Shown here: piece by piece, positions 8,228-41,496 of the stretch
How the letters are laid out: each line of letters opens with the position of its first letter
Position numbering within the stretch: position 1 is the stretch's first letter
Assembly: GCA_905181815.1 (NCBI GenBank)
Contig: CAJIZA010000002.1
Location: 1-61,554 of the forward strand
Length of the DNA stretch: 61,554 nucleotides
Origin: an uncultured Planktomarina sp.
GTDB lineage: Bacteria > Pseudomonadota > Alphaproteobacteria > Rhodobacterales > Rhodobacteraceae
Direction of reading: 5' to 3'
Made by a program: the position numbers and the translations under genes
The notes under the pieces: model-generated
Told to the model about the DNA's origin: nothing
What the model saw: the letters and a program-made list of their open reading frames with translations, nothing else
Database searches by the model: none

Positions 8228-9643
8228 TTAAGGAATAAATCGCTGTACTAGGCTGACCAACCGCTTAATGAACTGGCTTTCAAACAGCTTCGGTGAAAAA
8301 TAGGCGCCAGCAACCCTTTTGTTGATCTCCCCCATGGTGGGATAAGGCAGGACCATGGCGGCAATCGCAGACATTTTTAGATTGTTGGCCAAAGCCATAG
8401 CCCAGATCCCAATCATCTCTCCAGCCCCGGTGCCAACGATAGACGCACCAACAGGCCGGCCTTTGACCACCATAACTTTTATTAAACCCATGGTCTTGCC
8501 GGTGGCAATAGCCCGGTCGCTGCCACCAAAATCAAATCGGGCAACCTCCAAATGCGCGCCATATTTTGCACGCGCCTGCGCTTCGGTCAGTCCCACTTGT
8601 GCCAGCTCGGGATCAGTGTAGGTCGCCCAAGGAATATGATCGCTCTTCGCCTTGGCCGGCAGACCAAAGAGCATCGAACGGATCACAACCCCGGCATGAT
8701 AACCCGCCACATGGGTGAATTGCAGACCACCTGCCACATCACCAATCGCATAGACCCGCCGGTTGCTGGTGCGCATGCCCGCGTCCACCTTTATCCCACC
8801 TCGGTCGCAGGCTATTCCAGCGGCTTCCAGATCGAGCCACTCTGTATTGACCTTGCGGCCCACGGCCATCAAAAGATGCGTGCCGTGAAATTCACCCTGC
8901 GATGTGGACACTGTGATATCACCGTCCGCGTCTGACACGCTTTGTGCCAAAGCTCCCTCGACAATCTCAATGCCTTCATCGCTCAACTTCTGCACGAGGA
9001 TCGCGGCCAATTCGGGATCATCCTTGGCAAAAACCTTTTGCCCTTCGATTACCGTCACCTCAGATCCAAGTCGACGGTGCGCCTGCGCCATCTCCATTCC
9101 AATTGGACCACCGCCAATGATCAAGAGGTGATTGGGCCGCTCGCGCAAATCGAATATTGTATGATTTGTATAATGGGGCACATCGCTCAAGCCAGGGATG
9201 GCTGGCACGAAGGGGCTGGAGCCGGTGGCAATTACAATTCTGCGCGCGGTGATCACCCGATCTCCCGCTTGGACCTCTGTGGGGGATATAAAACGGCCAA
9301 AAGCTTCAATCACGGTTACTCCCAGGCCCTCAAACCGCGCCACGCTATCATGCGGCGCGATCTGGCCAATGACCGAGGCAACAAAATCTTTGGCCTTCCC
9401 ATAACTGATCGTATTCTTCCCCGGCCCAACACCCATGGCGGCATTGCCCCCCTGCCCATGAGCCACAGAGGCAGCAGCCAAAAGAGCTTTAGACGGCACG
9501 CAGCCATAATTGAGGCAATCACCCCCCATTTTATGGCCCTCAAGCAATACGACGCGCGCGCCCATCTGCACCGCACCCGCCGCAACAGATAGGCCGCCCG
9601 CGCCGCCACCAATCACCAAAACATCTGTATCTATCCGCTCCAT
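8228..9643 (-). CDS. mercuric reductase-like FAD/NAD(P) disulfide oxidoreductase
   Basis: This is a class I pyridine-nucleotide-disulfide oxidoreductase, 471 residues. The N-terminal FAD site is VIGGGAGGLS; the redox pair is Cys43/Cys48 in GGDCLNYGCVPSK; the NAD(P) site GGGPIGME is near residue 180; the second FAD motif is YAIGDVAGG. In the C-terminal dimer domain the usual catalytic His-x-Pro of lipoamide dehydrogenase is replaced by YPT, as in MerA relatives, and the MerA C-terminal Cys pair is absent. It is therefore probably neither a true Lpd nor a mercury-reducing enzyme. It follows the TVP38-family gene by 2 nt, a pairing that suggests membrane-associated redox work. Confidence 0.85.
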   Translation of the reverse strand: MERIDTDVLVIGGGAGGLSVAAGAVQMGARVVLLEGHKMGGDCLNYGCVPSKALLAAASVAHGQGGNAAMGVGPGKNTISYGKAKDFVASVIGQIAPHDSVARFEGLGVTVIEAFGRFISPTEVQAGDRVITARRIVIATGSSPFVPAIPGLSDVPHYTNHTIFDLRERPNHLLIIGGGPIGMEMAQAHRRLGSEVTVIEGQKVFAKDDPELAAILVQKLSDEGIEIVEGALAQSVSDADGDITVSTSQGEFHGTHLLMAVGRKVNTEWLDLEAAGIACDRGGIKVDAGMRTSNRRVYAIGDVAGGLQFTHVAGYHAGVVIRSMLFGLPAKAKSDHIPWATYTDPELAQVGLTEAQARAKYGAHLEVARFDFGGSDRAIATGKTMGLIKVMVVKGRPVGASIVGTGAGEMIGIWAMALANNLKMSAIAAMVLPYPTMGEINKRVAGAYFSPKLFESQFIKRLVSLVQRFIP

Positions 9644-37717: not shown

Positions 37718-38086
37718 TCAGAGCACCTCTGGGGCGAGTGAAATGATTTTCATGAAGTTCTTGGCACGCAGCTCACGCACAACAGGGCCAAAGATCCGTG
37801 TTCCCACGGGCTCATTTGCATTATTAAGGATAACGGCTGCGTTGCGATCAAAGCGGATCGCTGTGCCGTCTTCACGGCGAACTTCTTTGGCGGTGCGAAC
37901 AACAACGGCCTTACGGACGTCGCCCTTCTTAACACGGCCACGTGGGATGGCTTCCTTAACCGAGACAACAATAACGTCGCCTACGGATGCGTACTTACGC
38001 TTGGAACCACCCAAAACCTTGATGCACTGAACACGGCGTGCGCCGCTGTTGTCAGCTACATCCAGATTTGTTTGCATCTGGATCAT
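37718..38086 (-). CDS. rplN: 50S ribosomal protein L14
   Basis: L14 forms an intersubunit bridge. It has 122 residues: it begins [20 protein letters not shown] and has [15 protein letters not shown] and the [21 protein letters not shown]-terminal block. It lies about 67 nt after rpsQ. Confidence 0.97.
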
Positions 38087-38153
38087 GTGGTTACTCCCGA
38101 CCTATGGGGTGCGATGCCGCAATATCCCCCAGGGTTTCGATTAAACTGCGATG

Positions 38154-38384
38154 TTATTCTGCAATAACTTCCCAGCGTTTGGTTTTCGATTTAGGCGCAC
38201 ATTCTTGAATACGAACGATATCACCTACATTGAAAGCATTCTTGTCATCGTGAGCCCGGTACTTTTTAGACTTACGGATGGTTTTCTGCAGCAAAGCGTG
38301 CTTGAAGCGGCGTTCGACCGATACAGTCACAGTTTGTTCGTTCTGGTTCGATGTAACGACGCCGGACAGGATACGTTTGGGCAT
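38154..38384 (-). CDS. rpsQ: 30S ribosomal protein S17
   Basis: S17 is a primary 16S-binding protein with an OB fold. It has 76 residues: it starts [20 protein letters not shown] and has the [20 protein letters not shown] segment. It lies 5 nt after rpmC. Confidence 0.97.
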
Positions 38385-38389
38385 ACGGC

Positions 38390-38596
38390 TTACTCCTCGC
38401 CTGCGGCGGCGGCCGCTTTTTGGTTTAAAATAGTATTTACACGGGCCACACCGCGGCGCACTTGACGCATGCGGCTTGTGTTTTCCATTTGCCCTGTCGC
38501 CTGCTGAAACCGCAGGTTAAAAGCTTCTTTTTTCAGTGCAACCAACTCGTCACGGAGCTGATCCGGGGTCTTGTCCCGAAGTTCGTTGGCATTCAT
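38390..38596 (-). CDS. rpmC: 50S ribosomal protein L29
   Basis: L29 is a small helical protein at the tunnel exit, where it docks SRP and trigger factor. It has 68 residues, with the [20 protein letters not shown] and [20 protein letters not shown] cores. Here it is the first recognised gene of its unit. Its usual upstream partner rplP is not present. The start follows GAAAGGAAA and overlaps the stop of a 22-codon frame. Confidence 0.96.
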
Positions 38597-38661
38597 AGCC
38601 GTTTCCTTTCAACATCACTGGAGGGCGCTCGAAGGGTTACCCTGATTCCAGTGGAGGTCAT
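38593..38661 (-). CDS. possible 22-codon leader frame coupled to rpmC
   Basis: A short minus-strand frame starting ATG at 38661 reads [13 protein letters not shown] and ends ERKRL; its TGA overlaps the rpmC ATG (ATGA). It has no clear ribosome site of its own. It also lies across a 7-bp inverted repeat (CACTGGA/TCCAGTG), which would place a stem just before rpmC. It does not resemble the end of L16. It may be a translated leader or chance. Confidence 0.3.
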
Positions 38662-38820
38662 GGTGAAAGGTTGCTTTAATGGGGATTGGCTCATATGGCA
38701 ACCCCGCAGCAGCGCTTTGTTTGCAGCAATCTGATTTGTCATGATTTTGCCGTCCAAACACCGGCACCAGACTGCGCTTTTCCCACTCGCCCTCCGCGTT
38801 GTGTTGCGCTACAAAACCCT

Positions 38821-39441
38821 ATGTCCGATATCAAATCGCTTTTCACAACCCGCCTGTATCACGCTGCGCTCTCTGAGCACGGCCCCACTGTTGACGCCGA
38901 TGAGCTGACTGCCTCCTGCCTGACTATCGCGGAAGATGATGAGGCCGGTCAAGACTGGTGTGACAAGAATGATTTTCCCGGTTACACAAGCTATGCCTCC
39001 CTCACCGATCTGGATTGGCGTTTTCCAATCTTCAAAGATGTAGTGACCGCGTTGGACTTGCATGTCACGGAGTTTTCTAAAGATCTCGACTTTGATTTGG
39101 GCGACAAAACCATCACACTCGACAGCCTTTGGATCAATATTTTGCCCTATGGCGGCATACATACCGCCCATATTCATCCCCATTCGATCATCAGTGGCAC
39201 CACCTATGTGGCGATGCCTGAAGGTACCAGCGCGATCAAATTTGAAGATCCACGCCTGGCCATGATGATGGCGGCCCCTACACGCAAAAAAACTGCGTGC
39301 GCAGAGCTGCGCAGTTTTTTCTATGCCAAGCCAAAGGTTGGGGATGTGTTGTTGTGGGAAAGTTGGCTGCGTCATGAGGTGCCAATGAATATGGCAAAAG
39401 ATGACCGAATTTCAGTTAGTTTTAACTACAGCTGGAGCTAA
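38821..39441 (+). CDS. 2OG-Fe(II) oxygenase, TIGR02466-type
   Basis: A 206-residue predicted 2-oxoglutarate/Fe(II)-dependent oxygenase. The double-stranded beta-helix core shows WINILPYGGIHTAHIHPHSI (metal-side His at 114-121), ISGTTYVAMP, a distal His185 in WLRHEVPMN and Arg196 in DDRISVSFNYSW for the 2OG carboxylate. It starts at the ATG at 38821. It lies on the opposite strand to every ribosomal gene, exactly where rplB-rpsS-rplV-rpsC-rplP should be. The substrate is unknown. Some 2OG oxygenases of other families hydroxylate ribosomal proteins L16 and L2, so a ribosomal role is possible but unsupported. Confidence 0.82.
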   Translation: MSDIKSLFTTRLYHAALSEHGPTVDADELTASCLTIAEDDEAGQDWCDKNDFPGYTSYASLTDLDWRFPIFKDVVTALDLHVTEFSKDLDFDLGDKTITLDSLWINILPYGGIHTAHIHPHSIISGTTYVAMPEGTSAIKFEDPRLAMMMAAPTRKKTACAELRSFFYAKPKVGDVLLWESWLRHEVPMNMAKDDRISVSFNYSWS

Positions 39442-39487
39442 TTCGCGAGTAAGCCTTAGACCATCGTGGTCGATCTGCGATGCGACG

Positions 39488-39526
39488 CATTAAAGAAATG
39501 CGCCCGCACTCAAGATGCGGACGCAT
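39488..39526 (-). terminator. terminator after rplW
   Basis: An 11-bp stem on the minus strand (ATGCGTCCGCA/TGCGGGCGCAT, one G-U pair, 7-nt loop; 39498-39526), 9 nt past the rplW stop, followed by TTCTTTAATG. On the plus strand the same stem has a C-A mismatch, so it is built for the minus strand. It indicates that transcription from the str/S10 side normally stops after rplW. Confidence 0.75.
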
Positions 39527-39534
39527 TGAAAATC

Positions 39535-39831
39535 TTACAACCCAGTCGTTACGTCGATTGTGTTGCCTTCTTCAAGGGTCACATATGCTTTTTTCACATC
39601 ACGGCGTTTGCCAAGCATGCCGCGAAAGCGCTTTGATTTCCCTTTGGTGATCGTTGTGTTCACCGCTTTCACCTTCACGTCAAACAGGCTTTCTACAGCC
39701 TCTTTGATGCTGGGCTTATTGCTGTCGATGGACACTTCAAACACAACCGCGCCGTTTTCAGATGCCGTTGTAGTTTTCTCAGTGATAATCGGCTTGCGGA
39801 TCACATCGTAATGTTCTGGTTTTGCGCTCAT
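39535..39831 (-). CDS. rplW: 50S ribosomal protein L23
   Basis: L23 sits at the exit tunnel and docks trigger factor and SRP. It has 98 residues: [20 protein letters not shown] and the [20 protein letters not shown] block are typical. It overlaps rplD by 4 nt. It is normally followed by rplB, but here a terminator follows. Confidence 0.97.
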
Positions 39832-40445
39832 TTCAAACGGGCCTCCAAAGCTTCCAACCCTGCTTTTGTTATAACAAGAGTGTCACGTTTCAGGATATCA
39901 AACACATTCGCACCCATTGTCGGCAGGATGTCCAGACCTTCAATATTCCGCGCTGCCTGTGCAAAGTTTTCATTTACAGCTGCGCCGTCGATGATCAAAG
40001 CACGTTTCCAACCCAAGTTTGCAACCGCTTTGGCCAACGCACTTGTTTTACCGTCAGAAACAGCTGCATCAATCACAACCAACTCACCCGCTTTTGCCTT
40101 CGCAGACAGAGCGTGCTTCAGACCCAGGGCCCGCACTTTTTTCGGCAAATCATGGCCGTGGCTGCGCGGTGTTGGACCCTTATAAACTCCACCACCGCGG
40201 AAGATCGGAGCAGAACGCGCGCCGTGACGTGCGCCGCCGGTACCTTTCTGACGATAGATCTTCTTGGTGGAGTAGCTGACTTCAGACCGAGTTTTTACTT
40301 TGTGTGTGCCAGCCTGCGCATTGTTACGCTGCCAGCGCACAACACGATGCAGAATGTCGACACGTGGCTCAAGACCAAACAATGCCTCATTCAGATTAAT
40401 CGAACCGGCTTTGCCGCCGTCGAGTTTGATGACATCTAGTTTCAT
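39828..40445 (-). CDS. rplD: 50S ribosomal protein L4
   Basis: L4 reaches into the exit tunnel and in some bacteria regulates the S10 operon. It has 205 residues, with [20 protein letters not shown] and the tunnel loop [19 protein letters not shown] intact. It overlaps rplC and rplW by 4 nt each. Confidence 0.97.
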
Positions 40446-41173
40446 GCTTCACCGCCTTCCGCAGGAGCGTCAGCTACAGGAGCTTCGGCCGGTGCGGCTG
40501 CTGATTTGATTGCCGCTGGAAAAGGAACTCCGTCAGGCAACTTCTTTTTCATCGCATCTTTGATTGTGACCCAGCCACCCTTGGAGCCTGGAACCGCGCC
40601 TTTGACCATAATCAAACCGCGATCAGCGTCTGTACGCACAACTTCCAAGTTCTGAGTGGTGACTTTCGCCGCACCCATGTGACCAGCCATTTTCTTGCCT
40701 TTAAACACTTTACCTGGATCTTGACATTGACCTGTCGAGCCGTGTGAGCGGTGGCTGATGGACACACCGTGGGACGCACGCAAACCACTAAAGTTCCAGC
40801 GCTTCATCGCTCCTTGGAAACCTTTACCGATCGATGTACCAGATACGTCAACCATTTGACCTTCAAGAAAATGTTCGGCCGAAATTTCGGCACCCACTTC
40901 AATCAAGTTTTCGGCAGAAACACGGAATTCGGCAACCTTACGCTTGGGCGCAACATTTGCCTTGGCGAAATGACCGCGCATCGCTTGACTTGTGCGTTTT
41001 GCTTTTGCAGATCCAGTACCCAATTGCACAGCTGTGTAGCCATCCAAATCGGCAGTGCGCTGTGCCACAACTTGCAGACCATCCAAAGCGAGCACTGTCA
41101 CCGGGATTTGCTTACCGTCTTCCATGAACAAACGGGTCATACCCATTTTTTTCGCAATAACTCCAGAGCGCAT
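40442..41173 (-). CDS. rplC: 50S ribosomal protein L3
   Basis: L3 is an early-assembly protein reaching the peptidyl-transferase centre. It has 243 residues from the ATG at 41173 ([20 protein letters not shown]); a TTG two codons upstream is also possible. The central loop [20 protein letters not shown], with the methylatable Gln, is conserved. An Ala/Glu-rich C-terminal tail is present, common in alphaproteobacteria. Confidence 0.96.
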
Positions 41174-41187
41174 AATCAATACCCCCC

Positions 41188-41496
41188 TTAAACTGAGATT
41201 TGCACGTCAACACCAGCAGCCAGGTCGAGCTTCATCAGCGCGTCCACAGTCTGTGGTGTTGGATCAACGATATCCAGCAGGCGTTTGTGCGTGCGGATTT
41301 CAAACTGGTCACGAGATTTTTTGTCAACGTGAGGACCACGCAGAACAGTAAATTTCTCGATTTTGTTCGGCAGTGGGATTGGGCCACGTACCTGTGCACC
41401 TGTCCGTTTGGCTGTATTGACGATTTCGAGCGTGGACGCATCCAACACACGGTGGTCAAAGGCCTTCAGACGAATGCGGATATTTTGACTTTGCAT
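41188..41496 (-). CDS. rpsJ: 30S ribosomal protein S10
   Basis: S10 belongs to the 30S head and also, as NusE, to antitermination complexes. It has 102 residues from the ATG at 41496 ([20 protein letters not shown]); the upstream open extension to 41577 is rejected. [20 protein letters not shown] is intact. Confidence 0.97.

Follow-up and report, generated by a model that had tools for sequence, protein, structure and literature searches.

The S10 cluster is among the most conserved gene orders of bacteria, and why its genes stay together is debated. In its canonical form, the operon reads rpsJ-rplC-rplD-rplW-rplB-rpsS-rplV-rpsC-rplP-rpmC-rpsQ.

Departures from the conserved order have been reported for the larger rpoBC-str-S10-spc-alpha cluster, which has undergone deletions, insertions, inversions and loss of concatenation (PMC8046335); that survey traces Gammaproteobacteria and Bacilli, and the word Alphaproteobacteria is absent from its main text. 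In roseobacters, the spc, suc and sdh operons are interrupted by poorly conserved inserted genes (PMC3305630). In Vibrio cholerae, S10 has been relocated by engineering and the outcome judged by distance to the origin (PMC4395360, PMC10127744).

The locus described here, in an uncultured Planktomarina sp., has the genes of the canonical S10 operon in the same order within each piece. It differs in that the middle five genes lie far away and on the opposite strand, and the remaining parts each have a leader or a terminator. As in the V. cholerae reports, ribosomal genes are found elsewhere on the chromosome; however, those reports concern a laboratory move of the locus, whereas in Planktomarina a part of it has moved naturally. 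The roseobacter inserts show the same tendency, i.e. conserved operons broken in the same bacterial group, but the cases described in the accessible text are insertions rather than removal of a block, and the S10 operon is not mentioned there. A literature search of limited depth returned no published report of this S10 break, which does not establish its absence from print.

The retained genes and the displaced block

The window, i.e. the whole stretch of 61,554 nucleotides that was analysed, is the entire contig C2 of a 2.54 Mb genome assembled in seven contigs, with a completeness of 91.7%. The part of the S10 cluster that stayed has the following features:

41191..41496, minus strand: rpsJ, first gene of the retained S10 part (PF00338)
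40442..41140, minus strand: rplC (TIGR03625, L3_bact; start at 41140 chosen by alignment length)
39828..40445, minus strand: rplD (TIGR03953)
39535..39831, minus strand: rplW, last gene ahead of the missing block (NF004360 / PF00276)
39497..39527, minus strand: terminator-like hairpin 3' of rplW, 13-pair stem and T-rich tail
38821..39441, plus strand: 2OG-Fe(II) oxygenase gene (TIGR02466 / PF13759; best start ATG 38821, stop end 39441)
38608..38657, minus strand: hairpin, conserved and covarying, immediately 5' of rpmC; candidate leader RNA for the unit that rpmC opens (no Rfam family reaches its cut-off)
38390..38596, minus strand: rpmC, opening the next unit (PF00831 / TIGR00012)
38151..38384, minus strand: rpsQ (PF00366)
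37718..38086, minus strand: rplN (PF00238)

After rplN, rplX and rplE follow on the minus strand, and the ribosomal protein genes of the window were confirmed by family scans. The oxygenase gene is the only gene recognised between rplW and rpmC, from which it is separated by 93 and 224 bp, respectively. As the earlier note had claimed, rplB, rpsS, rplV, rpsC and rplP are missing from the window: tblastn with the five proteins of the block found none of them there.

A whole-genome search for L2 led to contig C7, where all five genes lie together and in order, near a tRNA gene:

L002:9598-12250 (locus on C7), plus strand: intact rplB-rpsS-rplV-rpsC-rplP, all open and in canonical order
L002:13236-13312: tRNA-Arg(TCT) near the new site; the same tRNA is present in loci L046, L047 and L057

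The predicted proteins have 280, 92, 126, 239 and 137 residues, respectively, and were confirmed by Pfam as L2, S19, L22, S3 and L16. A Ribosomal_L2_C profile search of the whole genome gave a single match (C7 136969-137346), a second-copy check that covers rplB only. The block is preceded by a TauE/SafE permease gene and followed by a 63-residue gene with no Pfam match, which we called znr from its cysteine pattern, and then by tRNA-Arg(TCT). A 13-pair terminator lies 3' of the moved rplP; no consensus promoter was found upstream of the moved rplB.

The earlier note had left open whether the five genes had moved together or a segment had been dropped by the assembly. A dropped segment or a chimaera might be suspected in a seven-contig draft of this completeness, yet both junctions are internal to contigs and the same junctions occur in independent assemblies. 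The rplW-oxygenase junction is also present in genomes G003, G005 and G011 of the genus, and the new site of the block in G001, G003 and G011. In G011, a single-contig genome of 3,288,122 bp, ~204 kb separate rplW and the adjoining oxygenase gene (2.552 Mb) from the block (2.755 Mb). The window aligns with this genome unbroken across the junction over 18,015 bp (94.7%), and C7 does so across the new site over 4,997 bp (93.7%). An assembly gap is ruled out by the other assemblies and the unbroken alignments, and with the block found on C7 the relocation is supported. We consider an assembly artefact of any kind to have practically no chance of being the explanation.

Distribution of the move in Planktomarina and the resident oxygenase gene

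We compared the junction in 20 genomes of the genus, as the earlier note had proposed. The block is moved in five of them, with both sites seen in G000, G003 and G011, the new site only in G001 and the old site only in G005. Seven genus-mates (G004, G008, G009, G014, G016, G017 and G018) have the old order, rplW-rplB...rplP-oxygenase-rpmC. G012 also keeps this order but carries inserts of 2.8, 5.5 and 4.1 kb, and three partly legible genomes (G007, G013 and G031) fit the old order; these counts leave out G002, G006, G010 and G015. An SMC tree built from 17 rows of the genus places the five moved genomes together with G002 on one branch with support 100/100, and the five moved genomes without G002 have support 86/88. 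Judged from this tree, the moved genomes form one clade.

Two side observations concern the unmoved genomes. The inserts in the G012 cluster (L058 2106-17703) code for an ammonium transporter, a GCV_T-like protein, a GDPD and a PhyH-family protein. In G008 (L053 4529-9500), several ribosomal proteins (rplC, rplW and rplB) match at oddly low identity or as overlapping pieces, in which they differ from their neighbours; sequencing errors are perhaps the cause.

The flank of the new site that holds smc and the one that holds znr and the tRNA gene are separate in the unmoved genomes examined, and znr and tRNA-Arg are near each other in the unmoved G008. Because its two flanks lie apart in unmoved genomes, the empty new site could not be reconstructed; a histidine-kinase search for the flank gave matches that are mainly paralogues. 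The new site lies at a synteny break adjoining tRNA-Arg. Inspection of the junctions for repeats and tRNA fragments revealed no meaningful repeats; the only word of at least 11 bases shared between them is an 11-mer in G011, and G000 has no such word. This tRNA-Arg(TCT) has different downstream genes in each genome, including integrases in G001 and G003, and is an integration hotspot. Its neighbour at the new site in G011 is not an integrase.

The earlier note was mistaken in taking the oxygenase gene for a replacement of the five ribosomal genes. It is already present between rplP and rpmC in all seven genus-mates whose block is unmoved, and this old order rules out replacement. Since the unmoved relatives read rplP-oxygenase-rpmC, the gene was resident before the move and stayed behind; it is a bystander to the move of the block. 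The score of its product against TIGR02466 is 269.8 bits, for an NCBIfam cut-off of 62.5. Among 80 named loci, the best of 562 confirmed candidates, with a family assignment that was not checked locus by locus, 61 have the oxygenase gene flanked by rplP and rpmC. Another ten of these 80 have one of the two ribosomal genes as a neighbour, eight have none of the tested genes, and at one locus the neighbours are rpmC and rpsJ.

Terminators, leader RNAs and operon breaks in the family

The minus-strand terminator that the earlier note placed right after rplW was found (39527-39497, 13-pair stem). The argument built on it, that such a terminator speaks for a real break, does not hold by itself, as a hairpin and T-run are visible by eye at the same place in unmoved sisters (L049, L053, L062 and L063). 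Transcription may therefore have ended there before the move. In unmoved sisters, a hairpin with a T-run is also visible 3' of rplP. Because hairpins and T-runs follow both rplW and rplP in these sisters, the block was probably transcribed on its own even before the move.

An RNA element lies at the start of the block. Immediately ahead of the moved rplB, we detected a match to the L2-Alphaproteobacteria ribosomal protein leader family RF03142 that spans the full model (1-66 of 66) with 72.5 bits for a cut-off of 37.8, and ends at L002:9595, 2 bp before the rplB start at 9598. As in the known leader, the element is full-length and directly precedes the L2 gene; it differs in that it precedes a block detached from the operon. 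The element may bind a ribosomal protein and control expression of the moved genes, as its family assignment suggests. It also precedes rplB in all nine further family loci submitted to Rfam, and in L062. In contrast, it is found before rplB in none of 20 loci of other alphaproteobacterial families. The end motif of RF03142, with one mismatch allowed, is present before rplB in 75 of 85 Rhodobacteraceae loci (five genomes are counted twice, plus one more near-identical pair); the other ten have what appears by eye to be a variant. It was found in none of 34 loci of other families. A self-built model of the L2 leader (R1) had six pairs only and was dropped.

A second conserved hairpin lies in the oxygenase-rpmC spacer. 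A stem search recovered it at 84 of 93 rpmC loci, and a model recovered it at the other nine. In the 60 sequences aligned, out of 77 distinct ones, 12 pairs are predicted, six of them with two-sided changes, and two of those six have broken cells. For the structure as we named it, 91% of cells are paired, vs 34-51% when partners are slid. Pairing in the outer stem is overestimated, since the aligned rows had been picked for having this stem intact; the inner helix is paired in only 73% of cells. The predicted pair 25-55, which lies outside the selection, is CG in 48 sequences, GC in 10 and UA in 2. Two-sided cells number 42, vs 14.4 in shuffles. In contrast, pairs with two-sided changes (5 vs 4.6) and pair types (15 vs 14.3) show no excess, so that two of the five covariation measures are not above shuffles.

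The model matched all 29 rpmC loci outside its own rows, nine of which had been missed by the stem search and several others of which are near-copies of rows. It gave nothing above 11.8 bits at nine loci without rpmC and nothing above 9.3 bits in 20 controls of other families. Rfam 15 returned no match at cut-off, the best weak one scoring 17.9 bits vs 37.5. On this comparative evidence, the hairpin is a candidate new ribosomal protein leader RNA of the Rhodobacteraceae. No published report of it was found in a search of limited depth, and its absence from print is thus not established.

We then considered how common such breaks are in the family, drawing approximately one Rhodobacteraceae genome per genus. 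Both rplW and rplB were obtained for 125 of 149 genomes, and the 24 without one or both genes were left out of the count. The estimated rplW-rplB gap is <150 bp in 39 genomes, 150-600 bp in 32, 600-1500 bp in 24 and 1.5-6 kb in 16. In the remaining 14, the two genes are not collinear; they are found on different contigs in 11 cases, and on the same contig but apart or inverted in three. Two of the 14 (G000 and G011) represent the Planktomarina move, and nine from other genera are separated by contig sequence (G033, G040, G062, G074, G090, G097, G140, G157 and G169), a count of genomes and not of independent events. The other three, G151 (at contig ends), G132 and G150, are counted in neither group. 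The case closest to the window is G169, in which rplW is followed after 4.2 kb by rpmC and the block lies elsewhere together with the oxygenase gene.

The other alphaproteobacterial families examined differ. In all 34 loci read, out of 50 genomes with an L2 match, rplW lies within 34 bp of rplB as measured between aligned ends. Likewise, rplP lies within 56 bp of rpmC in all 20 loci (aligned ends); 20 of the 34 were submitted to Rfam. In the Rhodobacteraceae, gaps and breaks between rplW and rplB recur, and such a break is thus commoner in this family than the earlier note assumed.

Proposed modules, chance and the consequences of the move

We regard it as probable that what has relocated here is a self-contained module, the S10-spc cluster of the Rhodobacteraceae being split into three units of which the middle one moved once. 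The units would be rpsJ-rplC-rplD-rplW, then rplB-rpsS-rplV-rpsC-rplP behind the L2 leader, and rpmC-rpsQ-rplN and following genes behind the second hairpin. Terminators and foreign genes would have separated them ahead of the move. The second unit would then, in the ancestor of a single Planktomarina clade, have moved by ~200 kb into the opposite orientation, taking along its leader and terminator and leaving the oxygenase gene adjoining rplW. It would have been able to do so because the cluster was divided into separately controlled modules, such that nothing vital was cut. In this scheme, the block would have its own promoter, the leaders would regulate their units, as suggested by the family name and by covariation, and this autonomy would make the move tolerable. 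The present order could have come about by two inversions, one nested in the other, or by a duplication after which the old copy was lost.

Alternatively, chance rearrangement alone may have moved the block, the leaders and prior splitting being irrelevant in a family with a high turnover of operons. The new site at a synteny break by tRNA-Arg and the integrases beside that tRNA in G001 and G003 are in keeping with this, as are the insertions described for other roseobacter operons (PMC3305630). Nevertheless, the breaks coincide with two leader positions, with RF03142 opening the moved block and the rpmC hairpin opening the unit that followed it, and rplW and rplB are no more than 34 bp apart in the families that lack the leader before rplB. 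Chance alone is thus an unlikely explanation in our view. As the leaders and the breaks are both traits of the family, the link between them could nonetheless reflect shared ancestry rather than cause. One could likewise imagine that the block was acquired horizontally at its present site and that the native copy was lost afterwards, given a tRNA flanked by integrases in two genomes. However, the moved rplB, rpsS, rplV and rpsC are 96-99% identical to those of G004, G017 and G018, and the moved leader resembles that of the sister species, as does the spacer ahead of it, which by eye is similar to their rplW-rplB spacer. Horizontal gain is therefore very improbable.

Returning to the relocated module, its orientation relative to replication can be read in G011. 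There, dnaA starts near 422 bp. Of the ten samples taken between 60 kb and 1.6 Mb, eight have a positive GC skew, and all 13 from 1.76 Mb on have a negative one. Accordingly, the retained part (minus strand, 2.55 Mb) is co-directional with replication and the block (plus strand, 2.755 Mb) is head-on. C7 is collinear with the block region of G011, with an overall skew of -0.04 that is positive in the last 8.9 kb. To our knowledge, head-on ribosomal operons are rare.

A bolder reading, which we hold only tentatively, is that a rewiring of S10-spc in the Rhodobacteraceae has left three parts, each regulated independently, the second with RF03142 and the third with an uncatalogued leader before rpmC as its own leader RNA, and that the oxygenase acts on the translation machinery. 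The selection holding the cluster together would then be removed, and the modules would therefore be free to drift, to invert and even to face replication head-on. Against the module scheme speaks that pieces other than the five-gene unit have moved in G040 and in Sulfitobacter sp. DFL-14, so that this unit is not the sole mobile one.

A clade with a moved S10 middle beside sisters of the old order constitutes a natural experiment on linkage. It raises the question of whether linkage is kept by shared transcription and feedback, such that leaders of their own free each part. With the rpmC hairpin, there is also a specific candidate for a regulatory RNA, which can be tested in culturable members of the family.

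As for the oxygenase, its predicted structure is of middling quality (pLDDT 67.5), and hence the fold is described from solved relatives, which are called uncharacterised and have a prolyl-hydroxylase-like fold. This description is supported by a Pseudomonas P4H, solved with EF-Tu, that is among the more distant structural matches. Given the long residence of the gene beside rplP and this type of fold, a substrate in the translation machinery is worth testing, no more.

Two further rearrangements of the cluster were observed. In G040 (L145/L146), rplB-rplP is inverted beside the oxygenase gene, 140 kb from rplW. In Sulfitobacter sp. DFL-14 (L113), rpsJ-rplP is inverted relative to rpmC-rplE.
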